A DNA stretch of 64,000 nucleotides from Polymorphum gilvum SL003B-26A1 (lineage in GTDB: Bacteria > Pseudomonadota > Alphaproteobacteria > Rhizobiales > Stappiaceae). The notes under the pieces are model-generated. The model was not told where the DNA came from and searched no databases. It saw only the letters and a program-made list of their open reading frames with translations. The DNA lies in assembly GCF_000192745.1 (NCBI RefSeq), contig NC_015259.1:3673001-3737000 (forward strand), read 5' to 3'. Shown here piece after piece: positions 12,934 to 41,988 of this stretch. Position 1 is the stretch's first letter, and each line of letters starts with the position of its first letter. The translations under genes and the position numbers were made by a program.

Positions 12934-12949
12934 GTTTCATGCATGAAAC
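12934..12949. promoter_or_regulatory. Perfect 16-bp palindrome, operator candidate
   Basis: GTTTCATGCATGAAAC, fully symmetric, 45 bp upstream of the preferred start of the diguanylate cyclase gene and in AT-rich surroundings. It overlaps an upstream alternative ATG (12943), which argues for the downstream start. Confidence 0.5.
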
Positions 12950-12993
12950 GTCGGCATCGGATTTGTGCCTTCGTCTTTCGGTCCAGAGCGTCC

Positions 12994-14232
12994 ATGCCCC
13001 TCGACACCGCCACCCTAAACGCCGCCATCACGGTCATCGGCTTCGTCGGAGCGGTGCTGCTGTTCCTCGTCTGGCGCTTCTCCATGGGCAGCAGCAGCAC
13101 GCACAGGGACAGCATCCTGATCTGGGCGGCGGCGTTCATGCTGATCGGCTGCGGCACGCTGATCGTCGGGCTGCGCAACCACCTGCCCGAAACCTTCAGC
13201 ATCGTCGCGGGCAATGCCCTGATCATGCTCGGCATCGGCCTCAGGCGGATGGCGGTCGCCGCGTTCTGGCACCTGAAGCGCCGCCATATCGCCGCCATCG
13301 CCCCGGCGGTCGTCTGGCTCGCCCTGTGCCTGGTGCCGGAGTTCCTCGGCTCCTACACCGCACGCGCTATTTTCGTGCAGGTCTACCTGATCCTGATACC
13401 GCCATGGATCGCCTACATGTGCTTCGCGCACAACCGGGAGAACCTCTATTCCGGCTTCTGGTTCGGCATCAGCGCGCTGATCGACTTCGCCGTCAACCTG
13501 TCGCTGTTCGTCGCCTTCCGCATCGCGCCGGTCACCAGCCACGCCGAGGCGATGCAGAACGACATCTACAAGGGCTACATGCTGATCATGATCGTCACGG
13601 CGGTCGCCTCGGTGATCCTCGCCTTCGCCATGGTAATCGAGCGCGAGGAGCGGCGCCTGCGCATCCAGGCGCGCCGCGATCCGCTCACCGGCCTCGCCAA
13701 CCGCCGCGCCTTCTTCGAGCAGGCGCAGGACTGGCTCGATCGCCATGCGGCAACGCCGAAGACCTTCTCGGTGGCGCTGTTCGATCTCGACGACTTCAAG
13801 TCCGTGAACGACCGCTTCGGCCATGCCGCCGGCGACGAGATGCTGACCACCTTCGCCGAGGTCTGCCGGGAGCGGCTGCGGCCGGGCGACCTCGCCGGCC
13901 GCCTCGGCGGCGAGGAGTTCGTGCTGTTTCTGCCCGACACCCCGGCCGATGCGGCGCTGGTGCTGGCCGACCGGCTGCGGCATGCCTTCGCGCAGGCGGC
14001 CGAGACGCGCACCGGCGGCACCCTGGCGGCGACCACCAGCGCGGGCGTTCACGGCGGGCGCTGCGGCGAGGACGATCTCGACCGGGTACTGGCGGTCGCC
14101 GACGCCGCGCTCTATTCCGCCAAGCGGGCCGGCCGCAATCAGGTGGTGCGCAGCGATGCGGGGCAACCGCCCGAAACCGCCCGCGAGCCGGGGCTGGCAC
14201 CCGTCCGCCGCGGCCTCGCCGCCTCGGCCTGA
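12994..14232 (+). CDS. Membrane diguanylate cyclase (GGDEF)
   Basis: A 412-residue protein with six or seven transmembrane segments (about residues 7-215) followed by a complete GGDEF domain. The active site is GGEEF at 305-309, preceded by DPLTGLANRR and FDLDDFKSVND; an inhibitory-site RxxD (RPGD, 296-299) lies five residues before it, so product inhibition is expected. It should make cyclic di-GMP from GTP at the inner membrane in response to an unknown signal. The ATG at 12994 is chosen over 12943, which overlaps a palindrome. Confidence 0.9.
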   Translation: MPLDTATLNAAITVIGFVGAVLLFLVWRFSMGSSSTHRDSILIWAAAFMLIGCGTLIVGLRNHLPETFSIVAGNALIMLGIGLRRMAVAAFWHLKRRHIAAIAPAVVWLALCLVPEFLGSYTARAIFVQVYLILIPPWIAYMCFAHNRENLYSGFWFGISALIDFAVNLSLFVAFRIAPVTSHAEAMQNDIYKGYMLIMIVTAVASVILAFAMVIEREERRLRIQARRDPLTGLANRRAFFEQAQDWLDRHAATPKTFSVALFDLDDFKSVNDRFGHAAGDEMLTTFAEVCRERLRPGDLAGRLGGEEFVLFLPDTPADAALVLADRLRHAFAQAAETRTGGTLAATTSAGVHGGRCGEDDLDRVLAVADAALYSAKRAGRNQVVRSDAGQPPETAREPGLAPVRRGLAASA

Positions 14233-15270: not shown

Positions 15271-16539
15271 TCAGCCGCAGAGTGTCTCCGGCTGCGGCCC
15301 GACCACGCAGTTGCGCCCCCGCGCCTTGGCCTCGTAGAGCCGGCTGTCGGCGCGTTCGAACAGCCCTTCCAGCGTCGTCCCCTCCTGCGGAGCGATGGCG
15401 ACGCCGATGCTGACCGTGACCGGCTCCAGGAAGGCGTCGCGGGTGACCTCCGCGATCGTCCGGCGCAACCGCTCGGCGATCGACAGCGCCGCCTCGGCAC
15501 CGAGCCGCGCGCTCAGGATGACGAATTCCTCGCCGCCGTAGCGGAAGATGGCATCGTCGGAGCGCTGGTTGTCGCGCAGCACGCGGGCGATGGTCGCCAG
15601 CACCTCGTCGCCGGCCTGGTGGCCGTAGCTGTCGTTGACCTTCTTGAAATGGTCGATGTCGAGCACGAACAGGCTGGCCGGATGGCGCGCGTCGAGGGCG
15701 CGCTCGAGCAGCGCCGGCGCCTGGGTGTCGAACTGGCGGCGGTGGGAAACGCCCGTCAAGAAATCGGTATTGGCCGTCTTCAGCAGGTCCTCGTAGCGCT
15801 CCCGGTAGGTCAGCACATGGAACACGTCGCGGAACGGCAGCGGCTCCGCATGCAGGTCCTTGTCCTTGAACAGGCGGAGATAAGCCATGAAGAACACGGT
15901 ATAGACCACCGTCGCCGACATCTTGGCCGCCCAGCCGCCGAACAGCACCTCCATCGGCGCGCCGGAGACATAGTGCAGGGCGAGGAAGAAGCCGGCCTGG
16001 TCGAAGGTCAGCACCGCCGCGCCGCAGATCAGGAAGCGCAGGCCGACGTGCCGGGTGAGCCAGGTGCCGAGGCGCTCGTAAAGCAGGATGATGGCGATCG
16101 CGTCGAGGAACAGCAGCACCGTTCCCCACACCATCAGCCAGCCCATCTCGTCGACGAAGCCGATGTCGGGCAGCCGTCCGGGCACCACCGACACCGTCTC
16201 GTGGCTGCGCAGCACCATCACCAGGCCGACGATCAGGAAGTTGCCGATCAGCAGGCCGTAGATCGGCTGACGCACCAGCGCGGCGTCCTCCTTGATGTAG
16301 AGCAGCAGGATCATCAGCAGCTTGCCGGAGAAGAGCACCGTCGATCCCGGCGAGATGATGCCGAACGGCAGTTCCACGTAGAAGACGCTGGCGAGATAGG
16401 TCTCCAGGAAGTGCATCACGCCCAGCGCGCAGACGAACACGCCGAGCCCGATGCGCTTGCGCAGCTGCAGCAGCGTCATCATCACGGTGAAGTAGAGGGC
16501 CGCCTGCGCAACCAGAAGGAGGGTATTCGTCATCGCCAT
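15271..16539 (-). CDS. Membrane diguanylate cyclase (GGDEF) with VUT-like membrane domain
   Basis: A 422-residue protein with about six transmembrane segments (residues 5-225) and a C-terminal GGDEF domain. GGEEF is at 335-339; RSDD at 326-329 is an inhibitory RxxD site. The substrate strand [17 protein letters not shown] is intact, so it should be active. The membrane part, with [25 protein letters not shown], recalls the queuosine-precursor-transporter (VUT/YhhQ) fold; that is a tentative impression. AGGAG lies 7 nt before the start. Confidence 0.9.
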
Positions 16540-20883: not shown

Positions 20884-23800
20884 ATGGCAATAGGGTCGAC
20901 ATCGTTCCAGGACGATGTAGAGGGGCACGACAGGGAAAAGCCCGTCGATGCCGTCGAGACCGGCGCATGTCCGCGCCCCCGCCTTCGCTCCCGTCCTTCC
21001 GGCTTCGACACCATCGTCCAGCAATGGACCCGCGACGGCATGCGCATCGCGCAGCCGCTCAACCTGATCTTCCTGTCGCTGTTCCTCCTCTCGGCGGTCG
21101 TCTTCGCGACCAGTGCGGTCGTCCACCGCTACACGGAAATCACCGCCGACGTCGCCGCCCTCGGCCGCTCGGCGGAACGCATGCTCGTCCAGGAGCGGAT
21201 AAACCTCGGCAGCGGCCTGGAGAAGGCGCTGGTCGGCCTGTCGGGCCATCACGGTCTGGCGGATGCCATGCGCGCCGGCGACCGTGCCGCGTTGCTCGCC
21301 CTCGCCCGCCCGCTGTACGCCGAACTCAACATCCGCTACGGCATCACCCAGATGACCTTCGTCGACCCGCAGCGCCGCCCCGTGCTGGCGGTGCACCGGC
21401 CGGCCCTGCAGGACGCCGGGATCGCGCGCAAAGCGCTGCTGGAGGCGGAGCGGACGCAGCGCCCGACGACCGGCCTCGACCTCGGCGACGCCGGGCTGCT
21501 GACGCTGGAGGTGGTGCGGCCCTGGCTCGCCGGCGGCGAGCTGATCGGCTACCTGTCGATCGGCATGGAGATGGGCAAGCCGCTCGATTCCCTGTCCTCC
21601 GCGCTCGGGGTCCAGGTGATCCAGGCCTATCTCAACGGCAGCATCGACCCGTCCCGCTGGGCCTCGATCGATACGGCGCGGCCGACCCAGAGCCGCTGGC
21701 TGATCTCGGAGCGCTACACCCTGTCGAGTTCCGGCGCGATGGCGATCCCGGGCCGGCTCGGCGACGTGCTGGACGCCCATGCGGACGCCGACCGGCCGTT
21801 CCGAGAGGTGTTTCTGACGGGATGGCGCATCAAGATCGCCTACGGCATCCCGCTGCTCGACGTCGGCGGCCGTCCGGTCGGCTTCCTGGTCACGCTGGAG
21901 GACATCACCGCCGCGCTGCTCGATTTCGCCTCCGGCGTGCTGGGGACCATCCTGATCGTGGCCGCCTTCGCCGTCCTGGCCGGCCTCCTCGTCCATCGCC
22001 TGGCAGGCCACCTGCAGGACACCGTTGTGGCCACGCGCCGGCGCCTGGAGGCCGAAGTCGGTCTGCGCACGAGGGCGCTCGCGGAGAGCGAGAGCCGCCT
22101 GCGCGAGGCGCAGCACATCGCCGCCATCGGCAACTGGGAGCGTGATCTGGTCACGGACGAGGCCCACTGGTCGGACGAGATCTACGCCATCTACGGCGTC
22201 GACCCGAAGACGGCCAATCCGTCGATCCGCTCGATCCTGAGCCAGACCCATCCCGACGACCGCGCCATCATCCTGGACACGCTGCGCAAGGCGCTGGAGA
22301 CCTGCTCGGACTACGAATTCGAGCACCGCATCATCCGGCCGGACGGCGAAGTCCGCTGGCTGCACGTGAAGGCCCGGTTCGCGCTCGACGCCGACGGCCG
22401 ACCGGTGCGCACGGTCGGCGTCACCCACGACATCACCGAACGCCGGCGCGCGGAAGAGCGCAGCCTGAGGCTCGCCAACATCCTGGAGGCGTCGCTCAAC
22501 GAGATCTACCTGTTCGACGCGCAATCCTGCCGCTTCACCCACGTCAACCGGCGCGCGCGCGAGAACACCGGCTACTCGATGGACGAGCTCAAGCAGCGCT
22601 CGGCCTGGGACCTTAAGCCCGATTTCGACGAGAGCCGCTTCCGCGCCCTGGTCGTTCCGCTGCTGGAGGGCGCCACCAACTCGCTCCATTTCGAGACCGT
22701 GCACGAGCGCAAGGACGGCTCCCGCTATCCGGTCGAGGTCCAGCTGCAGCTCAACACGGATGTCGGATCGCCGCTGTTCGTCGCCATCATCAACGACATC
22801 TCCGAGCGCAAGCTGCGCGAGGACGAGGTGCGCAGGGCCAAGGAGGCTGCCGAGCGCCTGGCGTTCTTCGACGAACTGACCGGGCTGCCCAACCGTGCCG
22901 CATGCCTGCGCGACGTCGAGCCCCTGTTCGGCGACGGGGACGTCGAGCACCTGATCATCCACATGGATCTCGACAACTTCAAGCTCATCAACGACACCCT
23001 CGGCCACACCGCCGGCGACGTCTACCTGCGCGCGACCGGCGCACGCCTGCGGGCTGCCTGCGCCGCGCCGGCGCGCGCCTACCGCTGGGGCGGCGACGAA
23101 TTCGTCATCGTCGTGCCGGTCGACGGCGACGCCGCCGCACGGGGCGCCTGCGAGGCGGTGTTCTCCTGCATGCGCGCACCACTCGACTACGAGGGTGCCA
23201 CCATCTGGCCGACCGTCAGCATGGGGATCGCCCGCTACCCCCAGGACGGCACGGACTTCGGCGCGCTGATGGTCAATGCCGACCTTGCCCTCTACCGCTC
23301 CAAGGAGGCCGGCAAGGACCGCTGGTCCTTCTTCACCACCGACATGAAGGCCGACAGCGACGCGGAGGCGCGCGTCGAGGCGGACCTCTACCGCGCCGTC
23401 GAGCGCGACGAACTGTTCCTGGTCTATCAGCCGCAGGTCAACATCCGCAGCGGCGAGGTCACCGGCGTCGAGGCGCTGCTGCGCTGGCAGCATCCGCTGC
23501 GCGGCGCCCTGTCGCCGGCCGAATTCCTGCCCGTGGTGGAGAAATCGCGGCTGGCGCCGGTGGTCGGCGCCATCGTGCTCGACAAGGCGCTCGCCGCGGC
23601 ACGCATCTGGAGCGACCGCGGCCTCGACTTCGGCCGCGTCGCCGTCAACCTGTCGCCGCAGCACCTGAAGGCCGGCACCTTCCTCGCCGACGTGCTGAAC
23701 GCCATCGACAAGCACGACGTCAGCCCGGACCGGATCACCGTGGAAGTGCTGGAATCGATCTTCCTCAACGACGCCAGCTGCCGCAAGATCGAAGTTCTGG

Positions 23801-24159
23801 AAGACCTCCACCGGCGCGGCGTCCACATCGAGCTCGACGACTTCGGCACCGGCTACGCCTCGCTGTCGCATCTCGCCGACCTGCCGATCGACGGACTGAA
23901 GATCGACCGCAGCTTCACGGCGCAACTGCTCGCCGATTCCAAGGCCCAGGTGGTGGTCAACTCGATCATCCACCTCGCCCGCGCGCTCGACATCGGCATT
24001 GTCTGCGAGGGCATCGAGACCGACGCCCAGGTGGCGCGGCTGCGCATGATGGGCGACTTCAGCGTGCAGGGCTACCTGATCGCCCGGCCGGCGCCGTTCG
24101 AGATCTTCTCCGCCTGGCTGGAGCGACGCACCGAGGCACGGCGCAGCGCCGCGGTCTGA
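20884..24159 (+). CDS. dCache-PAS-PAS-GGDEF-EAL cyclic-di-GMP signalling protein
   Basis: A 1091-residue inner-membrane protein. Two transmembrane helices (about 57-80 and 351-371) enclose a periplasmic sensor of about 270 residues with the NIRYGITQMTFVDPQRRPVLAVHRP signature of double-Cache modules. Two PAS domains follow (about 400-520 and 525-645), then GGDEF at 736-740 without an upstream RxxD site, and EAL at 863-865. The EAL catalytic set is complete (N922, E954, DDFG 985-988, K1006, E1042, Q1062), so phosphodiesterase activity is expected; both activities may be retained. GGAG is 3-4 nt before the start; Met53 is an alternative. Confidence 0.9.
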   Translation: MAIGSTSFQDDVEGHDREKPVDAVETGACPRPRLRSRPSGFDTIVQQWTRDGMRIAQPLNLIFLSLFLLSAVVFATSAVVHRYTEITADVAALGRSAERMLVQERINLGSGLEKALVGLSGHHGLADAMRAGDRAALLALARPLYAELNIRYGITQMTFVDPQRRPVLAVHRPALQDAGIARKALLEAERTQRPTTGLDLGDAGLLTLEVVRPWLAGGELIGYLSIGMEMGKPLDSLSSALGVQVIQAYLNGSIDPSRWASIDTARPTQSRWLISERYTLSSSGAMAIPGRLGDVLDAHADADRPFREVFLTGWRIKIAYGIPLLDVGGRPVGFLVTLEDITAALLDFASGVLGTILIVAAFAVLAGLLVHRLAGHLQDTVVATRRRLEAEVGLRTRALAESESRLREAQHIAAIGNWERDLVTDEAHWSDEIYAIYGVDPKTANPSIRSILSQTHPDDRAIILDTLRKALETCSDYEFEHRIIRPDGEVRWLHVKARFALDADGRPVRTVGVTHDITERRRAEERSLRLANILEASLNEIYLFDAQSCRFTHVNRRARENTGYSMDELKQRSAWDLKPDFDESRFRALVVPLLEGATNSLHFETVHERKDGSRYPVEVQLQLNTDVGSPLFVAIINDISERKLREDEVRRAKEAAERLAFFDELTGLPNRAACLRDVEPLFGDGDVEHLIIHMDLDNFKLINDTLGHTAGDVYLRATGARLRAACAAPARAYRWGGDEFVIVVPVDGDAAARGACEAVFSCMRAPLDYEGATIWPTVSMGIARYPQDGTDFGALMVNADLALYRSKEAGKDRWSFFTTDMKADSDAEARVEADLYRAVERDELFLVYQPQVNIRSGEVTGVEALLRWQHPLRGALSPAEFLPVVEKSRLAPVVGAIVLDKALAAARIWSDRGLDFGRVAVNLSPQHLKAGTFLADVLNAIDKHDVSPDRITVEVLESIFLNDASCRKIEVLEDLHRRGVHIELDDFGTGYASLSHLADLPIDGLKIDRSFTAQLLADSKAQVVVNSIIHLARALDIGIVCEGIETDAQVARLRMMGDFSVQGYLIARPAPFEIFSAWLERRTEARRSAAV

Positions 24160-30926: not shown

Positions 30927-31074
30927 GGGCCACGCGGCCTTCTCGCGCCATGGGCGGAAGGTTCGGTGCGTGTCCTTCGAGGCGCCCGCTCGCGCAGGCT
31001 CCTCAGGACGGGGCCCGGAGGAACGCGCGGTTTCGCTTGAGCCGGACGGCCGGACGGCGTTTAGTCTGACGGCC

Positions 31075-32361
31075 ATGACGCCAGTGCCCTCTGCCCCGAC
31101 GCAGCCATCCCCCTTGCCACCGCCCACAACGCCGCCGCCCGGCGGCCTGAAGCGGAGGCTGACGCTGCCCTATGTGGTGCTCTACGGCCTCGGCGTGACC
31201 GTCGGCGCAGGCATCTACGTCCTGATCGGCGAAGTGATCGCGCGCGCCGGCGATCACGCGCCGGTGGCGTTCCTGATCTCCGGGCTGGTCATGTTGCTGC
31301 CGGCAGCGTGTTTCGCCGAACTGACCGGGCGGCTGCCCTATGCGGCAGCCGTAGCGCATTTCGTCGAGGCGGGCTTCGGCTCCAGACACCTGTTCCTGCT
31401 CGTCGGGCTGGCGGTGGTGGCGGTCGGCGTGGTCTCCTCGGCGGCGATCGCCCTCGGCGCGGCCGGGTATCTCGGCGAACTCGTCGACCTGCCGGCGCCG
31501 GTGCTCGCCGTGGCCGCGATCCTGACGACCGGCTGCGTCGCCGTGATCGGCATCCGTGAATCGGTTGCCATTGCCGGAGTGCTGACGCTCGTCGAGGTCG
31601 GCGGCCTCGCCGCCGTGGTCGCCGGTGCGCTGTGGGCGGGCGCGGACCTGCCGGCGCAGGCGCTGGCTTCACCTCCGCCGTCCGCCGATCCCGCGCTGTG
31701 GGGCGCGATCCTCGGCTCCAGCCTGATCGCCTTCTTCGCCTTCATCGGCTTCGAGGACATCGCCTCCATCGCCGAGGAGACGGTCGCGCCGCAGCGGACG
31801 CTGGCGCACGGCATCTTCCTGACGCTGGCGCTCACGCTGGTCATCTATTTCGCCGTGCTGCTGGCGGCGCTGGCCAGCGTGCCGCGGGAAGCCCTGACCG
31901 ACAGCACGGCACCGCTTGCCGAGGTATTCGCCCACACGACCGGCCTGTCGCCGGTGACGATCGCGCTGATCGCGGTCGTCGCCACGGTGAACGGCATCAT
32001 CGTCCAGATGATCATGGCCTCGCGGGTGCTGTACGGGCTGGCCGACCGCGGGGCGCTGCCGGGCGGCCTCGGCACGGCCCTTCGCGCGGTGCATCCGGCG
32101 ACCGGCACGCCGGTGCGGGCGACCGTCCTCGTCGTGGCTCTGGTCCTGGTCCTGGCGCTCGCCTTCCCGATCACGGGCCTGGCGGAGGGAACGTCGACGA
32201 TCACCCTGGTCGTGTTCATGCTGGCGGCGGCGGCGCTGATCCGCATCAAGCGGTCCGGCGTGCCGGCGCCTGAAGGCACGGTGGTGGTGCCGGGCTGGGT
32301 GCCCTGGGGCGCGATCCTCGCCTGCGGCGCGCTGCTGGTCGGCGGGCTCGCAGGCGGCTGA
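31075..32361 (+). CDS. APC family amino acid permease
   Basis: A 428-residue transporter with about 11-12 transmembrane segments. The first helix holds the unwound substrate-site motif GLGVTVGAGIYVLIG, and helix 6 carries SLIAFFAFIGFEDIASIAEE, both typical of the APC superfamily. A Pro-rich N-terminal tail (about 24 residues) is unusual but probably cytoplasmic. Substrate probably an amino acid; not decidable here. The 109 residues that an upstream extension would add are not conserved. Converges on a small membrane-protein gene. Confidence 0.92.
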   Translation: MTPVPSAPTQPSPLPPPTTPPPGGLKRRLTLPYVVLYGLGVTVGAGIYVLIGEVIARAGDHAPVAFLISGLVMLLPAACFAELTGRLPYAAAVAHFVEAGFGSRHLFLLVGLAVVAVGVVSSAAIALGAAGYLGELVDLPAPVLAVAAILTTGCVAVIGIRESVAIAGVLTLVEVGGLAAVVAGALWAGADLPAQALASPPPSADPALWGAILGSSLIAFFAFIGFEDIASIAEETVAPQRTLAHGIFLTLALTLVIYFAVLLAALASVPREALTDSTAPLAEVFAHTTGLSPVTIALIAVVATVNGIIVQMIMASRVLYGLADRGALPGGLGTALRAVHPATGTPVRATVLVVALVLVLALAFPITGLAEGTSTITLVVFMLAAAALIRIKRSGVPAPEGTVVVPGWVPWGAILACGALLVGGLAGG

Positions 32362-32947: not shown

Positions 32948-35900
32948 ATGCCGAAGATTATCGGATTTCTCGCCGGTCTGACTTTGTCCCTTTTTCCATC
33001 GCTGTCCCACGCGGCGACGACCGCGACAGCTCTTCCAGTTCCGGGCCACAGCCTGGTCGAAGCGGGGCTGGAGCAACGACTGCAGCACTCGATGGACACG
33101 ATGTGGGTGCTGGTCGCAGCCGGCTTGGTGCTGCTGATGCAGGTCGGCTTCATGCTGCTCGAGGCCGGCCTGGTGCGCTCGAAGAACTCGATCAACGTCG
33201 CCCAGAAGAACCTGTTCGACTTCGCCTTCTCGGTGGTCACCTTCGCCGCCGTCGGTTTCATGTTCGCCTTCGGCGCCGCCAGCGGCTTCGGCATCGGCCT
33301 CGATTCCAGCCTGTTTCTGCTGTCGGAGCTCGATGCCTGGGGCTACGCGATATTCGCCTTCCAGGTGATGTTCTGCGGCACCGCAGCGACGATCGTGTCG
33401 GGCGCCGTGGCCGAGCGCATGAAGCTGCCGGCCTATGTCTGGAGTTCGGTGTTCACCGCCGGACTGATCTATCCGGTGTTCACCCACTGGGCCTGGGGCA
33501 ATCTGTTCGTCAAGGACAACGCCCCCTTCCTCGCCGACATGGGCTTCGTCGATTTCGCCGGCTCGACCGTGGTGCATGGCACCGGCGCCTGGATCGCGCT
33601 GGCGGCGTGCCTGGTCATCGGCCCGCGGCTCGGCCGGTTCGACCGCGAGCGCCGGCCGGTGCGCATTCAGGGCCACAGCGCGGTGCTGGCGACCAGCGGC
33701 GCGCTGCTCTTGTTCGTCGGCTGGATCGGCTTCAACGGCGGCTCGGCGCTCGGCGTGACCGCTGACCTCGGCTCGATCATCGCCAACACGGTGCTGGCGG
33801 CGGCGAGCGGCACGGCGGCGGGCTATTTCATCGGCGTGCGGCAGAACGGCTTCATCCTGCCGGAGAAGTCGATCTCCGGCCTGCTCGGCGGCCTGGTCGC
33901 GGTGACCGCGGGCTGCCAGGTGCTCGACACGGTCGGTGCGGTGGCGATCGGCCTCGTCGGCGGCGGCGCGGCGGTGTGGGTCAATCATGCGATCGAGAGG
34001 CACCTGCGCATCGACGACGCCGTCGGCGCGATCGGCGTGCACGGCATCGCCGGCCTCGCCGGCACGCTCGGCCTCGCCCTCCTCGCTCCTGCGGCAAACC
34101 TGCCGCTGGCGAGCCGGCTCGAGCAGCTGGGCGTGCAGGCGCTCGGCGCCGGGCTGAACTTCGTCTGGGCGTTCGGCATGGGCTTCCTGTTCCTGTCCCT
34201 GCTCGGCAGGGTGGTCGAACTGCGCATCTCGCCCGAACGCGAGGCGAGCGGCATGAACGAGACCGAGCACGGCACACGCCTCGGCATCGGCCATGTCGAG
34301 GAGGCGCTCGGCCGGCTGATCGAGGGCAAGGCCGACCTCAACCTTCGGCTTCCGGTTATTCCCGGCGACGACAGCGAGCGCCTGACCAGCATGTTCAACG
34401 CGCTGATGGACTCGATCCAGAACGAGGAACTGGCGCAGATCCAGGCGGCGGACGCGGCGCGCTCGCGCGAGGAGGCGGAGCGGCTGAGCGCGCTCGCCAA
34501 CGCGACCTTCGAGGCGATCGTGATCTCCGTGGACGGGCGCATCGTCGACGGCAACGCCGCGCTGGAGGATCTGCTCGGGCTGCCGATCACCAGGCTGAAG
34601 GGGCGCGATCTCAGCCACTTCCTCTCCCTCGACGACCGCGAGGAGTTGCTGAAGCACCTGGACGAAGCCGAGAGCCACCCGCGCGAGCTCACCGTGCTGC
34701 ACCAGGACGGCACGCCGGTCCCGGTCGAGATGCGCACGCGGATGATCTCCTACCGCGGCGTGCCTACCCGGGTGACGGCGGTCATCGACCTCAGGGAACG
34801 CAAGAAGGCGGAGGCGCAGATCCTGCACCTCGCCCAGCACGACCCGCTGACCGACCTGCCGAACCGGGCAGTGTTCAACAAGGAACTGGAGGCGGCGATC
34901 GACGAGGCCAGGGCGGCGGTCGCGTCGTCGGCGCTGCTGCTGATCGATCTCGACAGGTTCAAGGACATCAACGACCTGCACGGCCACCTGGTCGGCGACC
35001 GGGTGATTCGGGTGACCGCGGAGCGGCTGCGGCAGGGCAGCCGGCGCACCGATACGGTCGCCCGCCTGGGCGGCGACGAATTCGCCGTCATCCAGCGCAA
35101 CATCGACTTCGTCACCCAGGCCGAGGACATGGCCCACCGGCTGCTCGACAGGCTGTCGGCGCCGATCGACTGCGGCAACGGCCTGATCCTGCGGGCTGGC
35201 GCCAGCATCGGGATCTCGGTCATCCCAGCGCAGGGCGGCGGCGCCGAGACCATCGTCTCGAACGCCGACATCGCGCTCTACGAGGCCAAGCACAGGGGGC
35301 GCAACGCCTATTGCCTGTTCAAGGACGGCATGGGCGACCTCATGCGCCGGCGGCGCGAGTTGGAAGCCGATCTCGACATCGCGCTGGAAAAGGGGCAGTT
35401 CGAACTGCATTTCCAGCCGCGGCTGCAGATCAGCGACGCGCGCATCGCCTCCTACGAGGCGCTGATCCGCTGGAACCATCCGGACAAGGGCCTGATCAAC
35501 CCCGCCGACTTCATCCCGGTCGCGGAGGGCTCCGGCCAGATCCTCGGCATCGGCAAGTGGGTGCTCGACGAGGCGCTGACGGTCGCCGCACGCCACCTCG
35601 GCGAGGCCCGAATCAGCGTCAACGTCAGCCCGCTGCAGTTCCGCGAGAACGGCTTCGCCGACGCCGTCGAGGAAGCGATCGACCGGTCAGGCCTGCCGCC
35701 GAGCCGGCTCGAACTCGAGATTACCGAGAACCTGCTGATCGAGGACGACGCCCGTGCCTTGTCGATCCTCAGGAAGCTGAAGGCGAAGGGCATCCGCATC
35801 GCCCTCGACGATTTCGGCGTCGGCTATTCGTCGCTCGGCTACCTCAGCCGCTTCCCGTTCGACGCGATCAAGATCGACCGGTCCTTCGTCGTCGGCATCC

Positions 35901-36241
35901 ACACCAACGCGAACGCGCTGGCGATCGTGGAAACGGTCGCCCGGCTCGGCCATGCGCTCGGCATGGAGGTGGTCGCGGAAGGCATCGAGCGGGAGGAAGA
36001 ACTGCGGATCATGATCGACAAGGGCTGCGACGAGATCCAGGGTTTCCTGGTCGGTCGGCCGAAGCCGATCGGCGCGCTCGAACGCAGCGTGCCGCCCCCC
36101 GTCGGGGCGATCCTGGCCAGCCTGGACGGCGCCACCAGGACGACCCCGGACGCCCACGTCGCACAACTCAAGGACGTGAACGCGGAGCTGAAGGCGGCCG
36201 TCCGTGCCGGTGCGGGGGCGCGGGTCAAGCGGCCCGGATAA
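32948..36241 (+). CDS. Amt ammonium transporter-HAMP-like-PAS-GGDEF-EAL fusion
   Basis: A 1097-residue protein. After a signal-like N-terminus, residues about 40-430 form an Amt domain with 11 helices; the ammonium-pathway residues are kept: Asp202 in DFAGSTVVHG, twin histidines His210 and His365 (VHGIAG) and the FQVMF gate region. A linker of about 440-510 resembles a HAMP module, followed by PAS (515-615), GGDEF at 708-712 with an RxxD site (RRTD 699-702), and EAL at 837-839 with complete catalytic residues (N892, DDFG 954-957, K975, E1011, Q1031). It should couple ammonium sensing or transport to cyclic di-GMP turnover. Amt domains fused to signalling modules are known, such as the Kuenenia histidine-kinase fusion; this arrangement is uncommon. 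Confidence 0.9.
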   Translation: MPKIIGFLAGLTLSLFPSLSHAATTATALPVPGHSLVEAGLEQRLQHSMDTMWVLVAAGLVLLMQVGFMLLEAGLVRSKNSINVAQKNLFDFAFSVVTFAAVGFMFAFGAASGFGIGLDSSLFLLSELDAWGYAIFAFQVMFCGTAATIVSGAVAERMKLPAYVWSSVFTAGLIYPVFTHWAWGNLFVKDNAPFLADMGFVDFAGSTVVHGTGAWIALAACLVIGPRLGRFDRERRPVRIQGHSAVLATSGALLLFVGWIGFNGGSALGVTADLGSIIANTVLAAASGTAAGYFIGVRQNGFILPEKSISGLLGGLVAVTAGCQVLDTVGAVAIGLVGGGAAVWVNHAIERHLRIDDAVGAIGVHGIAGLAGTLGLALLAPAANLPLASRLEQLGVQALGAGLNFVWAFGMGFLFLSLLGRVVELRISPEREASGMNETEHGTRLGIGHVEEALGRLIEGKADLNLRLPVIPGDDSERLTSMFNALMDSIQNEELAQIQAADAARSREEAERLSALANATFEAIVISVDGRIVDGNAALEDLLGLPITRLKGRDLSHFLSLDDREELLKHLDEAESHPRELTVLHQDGTPVPVEMRTRMISYRGVPTRVTAVIDLRERKKAEAQILHLAQHDPLTDLPNRAVFNKELEAAIDEARAAVASSALLLIDLDRFKDINDLHGHLVGDRVIRVTAERLRQGSRRTDTVARLGGDEFAVIQRNIDFVTQAEDMAHRLLDRLSAPIDCGNGLILRAGASIGISVIPAQGGGAETIVSNADIALYEAKHRGRNAYCLFKDGMGDLMRRRRELEADLDIALEKGQFELHFQPRLQISDARIASYEALIRWNHPDKGLINPADFIPVAEGSGQILGIGKWVLDEALTVAARHLGEARISVNVSPLQFRENGFADAVEEAIDRSGLPPSRLELEITENLLIEDDARALSILRKLKAKGIRIALDDFGVGYSSLGYLSRFPFDAIKIDRSFVVGIHTNANALAIVETVARLGHALGMEVVAEGIEREEELRIMIDKGCDEIQGFLVGRPKPIGALERSVPPPVGAILASLDGATRTTPDAHVAQLKDVNAELKAAVRAGAGARVKRPG

Positions 36242-36569: not shown

Positions 36570-37748
36570 ATGCGTTCTAGCCGCATTTTTTCCGTCCTGT
36601 CGCTTGGATCCGCGATGATCGCAGGCGTTACCGCGGCGCAGGCCGCGGATCTTCCCGTAGCGCCGGAGCCGATCGACTACGTGCGCGTCTGCGACGCGTT
36701 CGGCACCGGCTTCTATTACATCCCCGGCACCGAGACCTGCCTGCGCGTCGGCGGCAAGGTCCGTGTCGACTTCTACTTCAACAACTACGGCGACGCTCCG
36801 AGCAACTGGAGCGACCGGACGGCCAACGCCACCGAAACGCGCGCCCGCGGCTACCTGCGCCTCGACGCGCGCACCAACTCGGAATACGGCCTCGTCCGCG
36901 CCTACATGGACACCTGGGTGACCAGCGACTCGCCGCACGGCAACGCGACCGTGGAGCTGTACGAGGGCTACATCCAGTTCGGCAACTTCACGTTCGGCAA
37001 GACCCAGTCGTTCTTCGACTTCTACACCGGCTATTCCTACGGCGCGTCGATCAGCGACTACACCGATGCCAAGACCTGGAGCGCGGCCTACACCGCCGCC
37101 TTCGGCAACGGCTTCTCGGCAACCGTCGCCATCGAGGACGCGACCACTCGCCGGGCCGACCTGATCTCGCCGGTCGTCAACGGCTACGCCGGACACCGCT
37201 GGCCGAATCTCGTTGCCAACCTGCGCGTCGACCAGGGCTGGGGCTCCGCCCAGATCATGGGTGCGGTGCATGAGGTCCGCTTCCTCGACGCGACCGCCAG
37301 CGGCCAGGTCGGCTGGGCGATCGCCGCAGGCGTCGAGTTCAACGTGCCGTTCTTCGGCACCGACGACGCGATCGCCTTCCAGGTCGGCTACTCCGACGGC
37401 GCCAGCAATTTCCCGATGAACGACTGGGACGGCCTGATCACCGACGCGGTGTTCAACGGCGTCTCCACCAAGACGACCAAGACCATCAACTTCGCGGCCG
37501 GCTACAACCACAACTTCAATGAGAAGTGGGAAGCCAACCTCGAAGGCGGCTACCACATCGCCGATGCGCTCGGCTCGGCCTTCGACTTCTCGCAGTGGGG
37601 CCTGAACGCCAACGTCGTCTGGAAGCCGATCGAGGGCCTCGGCATCGGCGCGGAGGTCGCCTACCGTCAGGTCGACTACAAGACCGCGACCGGTCTCGCC
37701 GACAAGGACGAGATCTACACCACGCTGCGCATCGAGCGGGAATTCTGA
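36570..37748 (+). CDS. Porin (Rhizobiales outer-membrane porin family)
   Basis: A 392-residue outer-membrane beta-barrel with a signal peptide ending AQAA at about residue 25. It has the family hallmark VRVCDAFGTGFYYIPGTETCLRVGGKVRVD with the paired Cys, alternating hydrophobic strands throughout, and the C-terminal Phe needed for barrel insertion. It serves general diffusion of small solutes. GGAG is 6 nt before the ATG. A rho-independent terminator follows at 37781. Codon choice is more restricted than its neighbours, fitting a highly expressed gene. Confidence 0.96.
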   Translation: MRSSRIFSVLSLGSAMIAGVTAAQAADLPVAPEPIDYVRVCDAFGTGFYYIPGTETCLRVGGKVRVDFYFNNYGDAPSNWSDRTANATETRARGYLRLDARTNSEYGLVRAYMDTWVTSDSPHGNATVELYEGYIQFGNFTFGKTQSFFDFYTGYSYGASISDYTDAKTWSAAYTAAFGNGFSATVAIEDATTRRADLISPVVNGYAGHRWPNLVANLRVDQGWGSAQIMGAVHEVRFLDATASGQVGWAIAAGVEFNVPFFGTDDAIAFQVGYSDGASNFPMNDWDGLITDAVFNGVSTKTTKTINFAAGYNHNFNEKWEANLEGGYHIADALGSAFDFSQWGLNANVVWKPIEGLGIGAEVAYRQVDYKTATGLADKDEIYTTLRIEREF

Positions 37749-41106: not shown

Positions 41107-41781
41107 TCAGCCGAACAGCTTGTCGATGTCGGCCTGAGAGCCATTCAGCATGGCGTCGACGTCGTCCTGGGACACGCCCTCGCCGGCATGCTGCGGGCCG
41201 TGCAGGATGAGTTCCCGCTTGCGGCGCTCGGCGTCGGTCTCCTCGGGCGTCGTCTCCATGGTCTCGACAATGCGCAACTTCTCGACGAAGGCGGAGACGC
41301 GCTGGTCGATGTAGTTGAGCGTGCCGACGACCTTGGAGATGCGCTGGCCGGTGATGTCCTGGAAGGCGCAGGCCTCGAAGATCTCGATCATCTTGGCGTT
41401 GACCAGATCCTGGTAGGCGGCGGGGTCGGACGTGTCCGCGCCCATGATCTCCTCCGCCGCCGTCATGATGGTATGGGTGGCGGATTCGGTCGCCTCGACG
41501 ATGGCATCGAGTTCGCGGCCGGCGTCCGGGATCTTGTTGTGCTTCATGTCGTTGGCGCGCAGCGCCGTGATCTCTTCCTTCATGCGGGAGATCTCGGAGG
41601 CGATCGCCGTCAGTTCGCCGGTGACGGCCGGCTGCACGGTGAGCAGGAAATCGTGCATCGAACCGGACATGACTTCCGCCAGCTGCATGACGTCGTTCAG
41701 GCTGACGTCGCCGCCGCGGTTGCGGTTGCCTTCCAGGAATTCGATGACGCGGACTACGTTTTCTCTTGTCATTGTGGTCAT
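41107..41781 (-). CDS. cheZ: Chemotaxis protein phosphatase CheZ
   Basis: A 224-residue, mostly helical protein that dephosphorylates CheY-P. The catalytic motif ACAFQDITGQRISKV holds Asp142 and Gln146, equivalent to Asp143 and Gln147 of E. coli CheZ. The C-terminal tail carries two successive CheY-binding-like segments, SQDDVDAML (204-212) and SQADIDKLF (215-223). AAGGAGG lies 8 nt before the ATG at 41781. The gene follows cheY on the same strand after 207 bp in which I see no gene. Confidence 0.9.
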   Translation of the reverse strand: MTTMTRENVVRVIEFLEGNRNRGGDVSLNDVMQLAEVMSGSMHDFLLTVQPAVTGELTAIASEISRMKEEITALRANDMKHNKIPDAGRELDAIVEATESATHTIMTAAEEIMGADTSDPAAYQDLVNAKMIEIFEACAFQDITGQRISKVVGTLNYIDQRVSAFVEKLRIVETMETTPEETDAERRKRELILHGPQHAGEGVSQDDVDAMLNGSQADIDKLFG

Positions 41782-41988
41782 TTCCCAGCCCTCCTTGGGC
41801 GTCGCCCGCGATGCCGCGAGCCCCGTCCCGCGCGGGGACGAGAAACGCATGCTCCGGTTTCGGACGGAAGTACTTCCATGAGCCGGTCCGGGAACCGGGC
41901 CGGCCGCGCCACCGGAAACACGCCTTTCGCAACAACACGGGCGGACCGAGGCGCGCTGGCCGCCGTCCGCTCCGCGACGCGAAAGCAC

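Follow-up and report, generated by a model that had tools for sequence, protein, structure and literature searches.

Can external ammonium set the level of cyclic-di-GMP (c-di-GMP) through a single polypeptide? The question is raised by a gene of the soil bacterium Polymorphum gilvum SL003B-26A1, found in a 64,000-nucleotide stretch of its genome (contig NC_015259.1, positions 3,673,001 to 3,737,000; hereafter the window), in which an ammonium transporter (Amt) domain is fused to a HAMP-like linker, a PAS domain, and GGDEF and EAL domains (Table 1). Our analysis suggests that the product is probably a self-contained inner-membrane receptor-enzyme with ammonium-controlled c-di-GMP turnover. Ammonium is quite likely to be its signal, and it is fairly probable that binding of the ligand changes enzyme output. 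The initial annotation had reached a similar reading from the pore residues Asp202, His210 and His365; we reach it because the protein is related to two Amt receptors, Sd-Amt1 of Shewanella denitrificans and Ks-Amt5 of Kuenenia stuttgartiensis, the latter an ammonium-responsive, ammonium-dependent kinase (PMC5764959).

In the mechanism we propose, external ammonium would enter the selectivity filter and a side pocket of the Amt domain, and its entry would shift the Amt trimer. The shift would be passed through the Gly-Leu-Asn (GLN) junction to the HAMP-like helix pair, the PAS domain and the GGDEF-EAL tandem, where it would alter the balance between c-di-GMP synthesis and breakdown. Our guess, which could as easily be wrong as right, is that net activity is mainly that of a phosphodiesterase, with GGDEF serving as a cyclase or as a GTP-controlled regulator.

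Table 1. Features of the fusion protein (window positions) and of its sister proteins (positions within their own loci).
Feature	Position	Strand	Basis or remark
Amt-HAMP-like-PAS-GGDEF-EAL protein	32948..36241	+	single 1097-aa open reading frame, ATG at 32948
Likely signal peptide, residues 1-22	32948..33013	+	hydrophobic N-terminus
Amt domain, residues 52-443	33101..34276	+	Pfam PF00909 (Ammonium_transp), E 1.9e-100
Gln65, Glu72, Asn88, Asp91	33140..33220	+	Ks-Amt5 ammonium-site equivalents; Thr148, Ser151 downstream
Asp202 to His210 (conserved Asp, first pore His)	33551..33577	+	invariant 62/62
His365, second pore His	34040..34042	+	invariant 62/62
Asn437, Amt/linker junction	34256..34258	+	alignment of fused and unfused Amts
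HAMP-like transducer, residues 448-492	34289..34423	+	hhalign against HAMP; model helices
PAS domain, residues 511-612	34478..34783	+	Pfam PAS_9/PAS/PAS_4; model strands 523-614
Signalling helix between PAS and GGDEF, residues 616-630	34793..34837	+	AlphaFold2 model
GGDEF domain, residues 629-786	34832..35305	+	Pfam E 3.6e-43; motif 708-712; RxxD I-site 699-702
EAL domain, residues 807-1038	35366..36061	+	Pfam E 2.5e-72; EAL motif 837-839
Sister protein L167	2078-5422	-	degenerate Amt, intact HAMP-like/PAS/GGDEF/EAL
Sister protein L168	1441-4767	+	degenerate Amt, intact HAMP-like/PAS/GGDEF/EAL
Sister protein L169	2088-5414	-	degenerate Amt, intact HAMP-like/PAS/GGDEF/EAL
Sister protein L170	1439-4744	+	degenerate Amt, intact HAMP-like/PAS/GGDEF/EAL

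A single protein conserved across Alphaproteobacteria

The reading frame has 1097 codons without an internal stop and encodes the Pfam domains Amt, PAS, GGDEF and EAL in that order, all with matches above curated cut-offs, as expected from the annotation of one polypeptide with a linker behind its Amt domain. The PF00909 match covers 396 of the 399 profile positions, and PAS matches were found at residues 516-603 (PAS) and 523-604 (PAS_9; E about 1e-7). No clear ribosome-binding site was seen ahead of the start; translation could instead begin at an in-frame TTG (32864), and the N-terminus is poorly kept, with 22% mean identity across relatives in residues 1-50.

A genome scan returned 78 loci, 61 of them with a full-length protein (about 1040-1110 aa) of identical domain order, in Alphaproteobacteria that include Roseibium, Stappia, Breoghania, Jiella, Aurantimonas, Rhodobium, Mesorhizobium, Novosphingobium and Hyphomonadaceae, among others. 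Because these 61 relatives keep the whole arrangement, the fusion is no artefact, and sequencing error, annotation error and chance were ruled out as its source. In the alignment of the P. gilvum protein with these relatives (62 sequences), conservation is highest in the Amt domain (63% mean identity to the P. gilvum protein, 94 invariant columns), intermediate in GGDEF and EAL (57-58%) and, among the folded domains, lowest in PAS (48%, 3 invariant columns). Purifying selection was found in every module, with ratios of nonsynonymous to synonymous substitution (dN/dS) across five close pairs of 0.03-0.14 in Amt and 0.03-0.15 in GGDEF-EAL.

The two enzyme domains had been annotated as active-looking, and conservation agrees with this. 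The GGDEF motif (708-712, within RLGGDEF) and the metal and guanine ligands D667, F671, K672, N675, D676, G683, D684 and K781 are identical in all 62 sequences, save that one sequence has Ala for Gly where the motif begins. The EAL residues examined for metal binding and catalysis (E837, N892, E924, D954, D955, K975, E1011 and Q1031) do not vary, so that both domains are predicted to be catalytically competent. The RxxD I-site was considered as a conserved control and set aside; it is present in P. gilvum and variable in the relatives (Arg in 31/62, Asp in 44/62).

Relationship to known Amt receptors

By sequence, Ks-Amt5 is the best-scoring Protein Data Bank (PDB) Amt for the Amt domain of the fusion (311 bits), and it likewise places an Amt receptor ahead of a signalling output. 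An AlphaFold2 model of the fusion protein (mean predicted local distance difference test score 87, predicted template modelling score 0.51) gave an Amt fold with a template modelling score (TM-score, target length) of 0.95 to Ks-Amt5 (6eu6, titled "Sensor Amt Protein") and 0.94 to Sd-Amt1 (8qj3/8qj4); across AmtB, Af-Amt1 and Ks-Amt5 the range was 0.90-0.95. Ks-Amt5 differs from the fusion in its histidine kinase output and in its reported lack of HAMP (PMC5764959).

Sd-Amt1, known here from its sequence and from PDB titles that name receptor states (8qj3 "OFF-state", 8qj4 "ON-state"; also 8qpf), joins Amt and GGDEF in one chain as the fusion does; its second matched stretch was taken as GGDEF by comparison with a Vibrio Amt-GGDEF protein (L084), in which Pfam detects GGDEF. 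The Sd-Amt1 Amt domain is 39% identical to that of P. gilvum, with the GLN junction and the same ammonium-site residues, but at about 644 aa the chain is too short for PAS and EAL, its positions 71/75 are Phe/Asn, and its Amt groups with that of L084 near the Amt-kinases, not with the P. gilvum-type clade. Amt receptors are thus already known for c-di-GMP enzymes (Sd-Amt1) and for a kinase (Ks-Amt5), and the P. gilvum fusion is a bifunctional version.

A fold search with the output half found the GGDEF-EAL part of PA0575, the PAS-GGDEF-EAL part of PA0861, MorA and DosP. The Pseudomonas aeruginosa proteins PA0861 (RbdA, 5xgb-5xge) and PA0575 (5m3c; GGDEF-EAL 42% identical to the P. gilvum output) and Escherichia coli DosP share the output order and keep the catalytic residues, but they carry other sensor modules and no Amt.

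In a quick Amt tree, built without bootstrap, 73 fused rows form one branch (Shimodaira-Hasegawa-like approximate likelihood ratio test, SH-aLRT, 98) and the unfused rows fall outside it. Outputs within this clade are histidine kinases, chemoreceptors, GGDEF and PAS-GGDEF-EAL, and all sampled classes share the Amt-HAMP-like front end. Residue 437 at the junction is Asn (GLN) in 73/73 aligned fused Amts and Asp (GLD) in 11/11 unfused Amts of the same subfamily. A motif scan gave Asn in 111/111 fused proteins in which the motif was found and Asp in 47 unfused ones; of its two deviations, L112 is genuine and L078 a spurious match. From these alignments Asn437 would be a better receptor marker than the ammonium-site residues, yet it follows the clade and could reflect descent and not function.

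A HAMP-like linker shared by Amt fusions

The linker is of gap-free length across the fusion clade, and its pattern (...DL..RL.V..GDE.ERL..LFN.LMD.IQ) resembles HAMP. It gave no Pfam HAMP match even at E<=10, and a sequence-profile search of PDB sequences returned no HAMP match, the top matches being designed proteins. By contrast, hhalign of the linker profile against 20 HAMP segments from the same genome gave 92.9% (43 columns). The controls stayed well below this: 26 other pieces of the fusion alignment reached no more than 9.9%, 60 column shuffles no more than 10.6%, and the reversed profile 2.8%. The linker was modelled as two helices (448-458 and 477-519), with a further helix at 616-630 ahead of GGDEF. 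The annotated HAMP-like character is therefore borne out by profile-profile comparison, below the reach of Pfam.

Linkers of the other fusions also match HAMP by hhalign, at 95.8% for fusions to methyl-accepting chemotaxis proteins (Amt-MCP), 74.6% for Amt-kinases and 84.9% for gammaproteobacterial Amt-GGDEF-EAL proteins, and they match one another. Ks-Amt5 was reported to lack HAMP (Pfluger et al.; PMC5764959), and its solved chain ends ahead of its linker.

Receptor or transporter

Several observations weigh against ammonium control of the enzymes, and the rival explanations are best judged beside them. Asp202, His210 and His365 had been correctly numbered, since they occupy the positions of the Asp and the twin His that Amt proteins conserve, and they belong to a pathway that is complete and invariant in all 62 sequences (Phe gate F142/F262, selectivity filter W183 and S266, twin His, D202). 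Almost every Amt has these three residues, and the AmtB of P. gilvum is no exception, so the annotated pathway stands as a description but is uninformative on sensing. Nor is it proof of transport, because Ks-Amt5 keeps the same residues and does not transport (PMC5764959).

The ammonium site of Ks-Amt5, which binds two ammonium ions via Q24, E31, N47, D50, T51, T109 and T112 (PMC5764959), corresponds to Q65, E72, N88, D91, F92, T148 and S151 in the fusion, where five of the seven are identical (Thr51 is replaced by Phe92 and Thr112 by Ser151) and Gln65, Glu72, Asn88, Asp91 and Thr148 are invariant in 62/62. Proteobacterial AmtB proteins are without this site. We considered it as proof of sensing and dropped it, as it is also found in GlnK-linked, GlnK-fused or unfused Amts: most or all of its residues are kept in Amts of Bacteroides, Haladaptatus, Enterococcus, Ruminococcus, Monoglobus and Methanofollis. 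Since GlnK-linked and GlnK-fused Amts carry it, the site is a trait of the subfamily and no proof of a receptor.

As a separate observation, these residues, reportedly absent from assimilatory Amts according to the Ks-Amt5 paper, were found in L301-L305, L308 and L072, Amts that are linked to GlnK, fused to it or standalone, which qualifies that paper with respect to GlnK-linked Amts; in the Firmicute Amts L301, L302 and L305 the reading frame (601-612 codons) ends in a GlnK/PII-like sequence.

A further point against ammonium control concerns the pore. The Ks-Amt5 block is formed by Phe27, Tyr30 and Phe34; only Phe27 is shared with the fusion, whose trio is F68/L71/L75, with Leu at the Tyr30 and Phe34 positions as in AmtB of the same genome, and the trio in Sd-Amt1 is F/F/N. 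With the block replaced by Leu71/Leu75, the fusion protein may, judging from these residues, transport ammonium; the block is recorded for Ks-Amt5 alone and is not a defining feature of Amt receptors. The Amt could then still be an efficient ammonium transporter, with the c-di-GMP part reporting flux or the transport cycle and not binding at a dedicated site. The intact transport residues, the two Leu and a modelled fold almost as close to transporters (TM-score 0.90-0.93) as to receptors agree with this alternative, which we nonetheless consider rather unlikely: the genome already has a dedicated glnK-amtB, N437 stands in place of the Asp conserved in unfused Amts, and Ks-Amt5 of the same clade is without transport.

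Sister proteins with a degenerate Amt

The best relatives of the P. gilvum PAS-GGDEF-EAL part (46-49% identity) are four proteins, L167-L170, from four genomes of one related genus (g6), whose GGDEF-EAL parts are sister to the P. gilvum-type clade (support 91). Their N-terminal membrane domain aligns end to end with Amt and has a similar number of membrane spans by hydropathy. The second His and the second gate Phe are missing from L167, while L168-L170 lack the Trp, both His, the Asp and the site residues. Of these three, L168 was scanned with Pfam and gave no Amt match. The degenerate domain is under purifying selection (dN/dS 0.03-0.07 in two pairs, one with near-saturated dS), and the sister receptor seems to have been retooled for another use and not discarded. 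The loss of most pathway residues beside an intact GGDEF-EAL, in these four genomes, counts against ammonium as the input, because it means that the enzyme part can be useful without ammonium.

The PAS domain could carry the main signal. If a redox, ligand or light input at PAS were dominant, Amt would be mainly a membrane anchor or weak modulator, and the retention of HAMP-PAS-GGDEF-EAL under purifying selection in L168-L170 would be accounted for; but a mere anchor would not retain the pore residues, and conservation across the 62 sequences is highest in Amt and, among the folded domains, lowest in PAS, so we regard this explanation as improbable.

Two more considerations count against ammonium control. 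Amt acts as a trimer whereas GGDEF, EAL and HAMP act as dimers, and these symmetries must be joined in one receptor-enzyme. In the searchable literature we found no experiment on any member of the P. gilvum-type clade.

Distribution and origin of the five-part layout

The frequency of receptor-like Amts was surveyed in evenly sampled genomes, with a cut-off that separates them from ordinary AmtB. Matches were found in 32/385 alphaproteobacterial genomes and 23/398 genomes of the phylum. The outputs were determined for 40 loci from the two samples: the class sample yielded 17 kinases, 2 chemoreceptors and 1 GGDEF-EAL, whereas in the phylum sample 14 were GGDEF-EAL, 3 were unfused, 2 were chemoreceptors and one more had its GGDEF-EAL part on a frame of its own. 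In a separate Pfam survey of 130 genomes, all Amt frames of at least 770 codons among the matches listed belong to the fused-Amt clade; a 719-codon frame in G523 was not among the frames assigned.

The five-part form had been called poorly studied, and our searches likewise found no paper on an Amt-GGDEF-EAL protein in the searchable literature, subscription journals being mostly outside its coverage. The form is not rare, however: it recurs in about 60 Alphaproteobacteria and also in an independent gamma/beta-proteobacterial group.

These gamma/beta-proteobacterial Amt-PAS(n)-GGDEF-EAL proteins (L198-L211) have the same domain list and HAMP-like linker, but their Amts branch with the Amt-kinases and Sd-Amt1, apart from the P. 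gilvum-type clade, and their GGDEF-EAL parts come from other families. The P. gilvum-type clade (SH-aLRT 98) is nested with alphaproteobacterial Amt-MCPs (joint branch SH-aLRT 99; L083, L171-L176), which are its closest Amt relatives (about 44-57% identity) and share its HAMP-like linker but have a chemotaxis signalling domain as output. In best-hit ranking, many Amt-free GGDEF-EAL proteins come ahead of the Amt-linked gammaproteobacterial modules in similarity to that of P. gilvum. A single origin of Amt-GGDEF-EAL was ruled out by this ranking, by the trees and by an approximately unbiased (AU) test of joint Amt-linked modules (p-AU 0.00014; one row, L198, is on a long branch). From the separate Amt branches and the module relations it follows that the layout was assembled more than once, the P. 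gilvum-type fusion separately from the gammaproteobacterial proteins. In searchable papers there appears to be no description of the bifunctional HAMP-PAS-GGDEF-EAL version, of its separate origin near Amt-chemoreceptors, of the Asn437 marker or of the HAMP-like linker that the fusions share.

A wider and tentative picture, which we would not quite call probable, is that Amt-HAMP is a portable ammonium-receptor cassette with one origin, marked by the Asp to Asn change at the junction, that was joined to most of the major kinds of bacterial output: kinases, chemoreceptors and cyclases, and PAS-GGDEF-EAL on no fewer than two independent occasions. External ammonium would then directly set c-di-GMP in the P. 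gilvum-type clade, a trimeric receptor driving dimeric enzymes, and in one genus the receptor would have lost most of the pathway, though still kept by selection, and become a sensor for something else.

If ammonium does control the enzymes, one polypeptide would wire a nutrient ion directly to the switch between motile and sessile life, with neither GlnK nor a two-component relay nor metabolism as an intermediate. The protein would also offer a test bed for what makes an Amt transporter a receptor, Asn437 and the shared HAMP-like linker being the candidates, and for the coupling of a trimeric receptor to dimeric HAMP, GGDEF and EAL modules. The HAMP-like transducers of the other Amt fusions examined further qualify the Ks-Amt5 paper, which reported them missing in that protein.

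Amt-MCP fusions were found at L083 (5923-8388), L171, L172, L173, L175, L176, L196 and L204. The Phaeobacter inhibens Amt-MCP is on a conjugative plasmid and is annotated merely as "ammonium transporter". We speculate that two Amt trimers would fit the chemoreceptor trimer-of-dimers. At L197 (203-3671, minus strand) a frameshift or an error of sequencing has split an Amt-PAS-GGDEF-EAL gene into Amt-PAS and GGDEF-EAL frames; the gene is whole in L199 and L200, the closest relatives.

Genome and cell context

The only other Amt in the P. gilvum genome is an amtB directly behind glnK, an ordinary uptake pair. Because uptake has this separate glnK-amtB, sensing is a likelier role for the fused copy than bulk ammonium supply. 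One further explanation would make the fused Amt a transporter controlled by GlnK/PII, with GGDEF-EAL reporting nitrogen status through PII binding. In Azospirillum brasilense, GlnZ binds a cyclase and a PAS-containing cyclase/phosphodiesterase (PMC7646526), but no glnK was found beside the fusion gene or among conserved neighbours, and the C-terminal GLD of GlnK-linked Amts is altered in the fusion and runs on into HAMP, which makes this reading very improbable.

The c-di-GMP network of P. gilvum is large, with 25 GGDEF and 7 PilZ matches in the genome, and flagella, chemotaxis and pili genes have been reported for the strain (PMC3281065). The fusion gene is flanked by an amino-acid permease (30970-32361, plus strand) and a Porin_2 outer-membrane porin (36570-37748, plus strand), neither of which is kept beside it in other species. 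With no neighbour conserved across families, gene context was rejected as a functional clue; a missing conserved neighbour is expected of a self-contained receptor-enzyme.

Elsewhere in the window are a GGDEF protein (12943-14232, plus strand), an opposite-strand GGDEF match (about 15310-15774, minus strand), a dCache-PAS-PAS-GGDEF-EAL protein (20884-24159, plus strand) and a reading frame (41107-41988, minus strand) whose C-terminal part matches CheZ, the chemotaxis phosphatase (E 2.9e-13).

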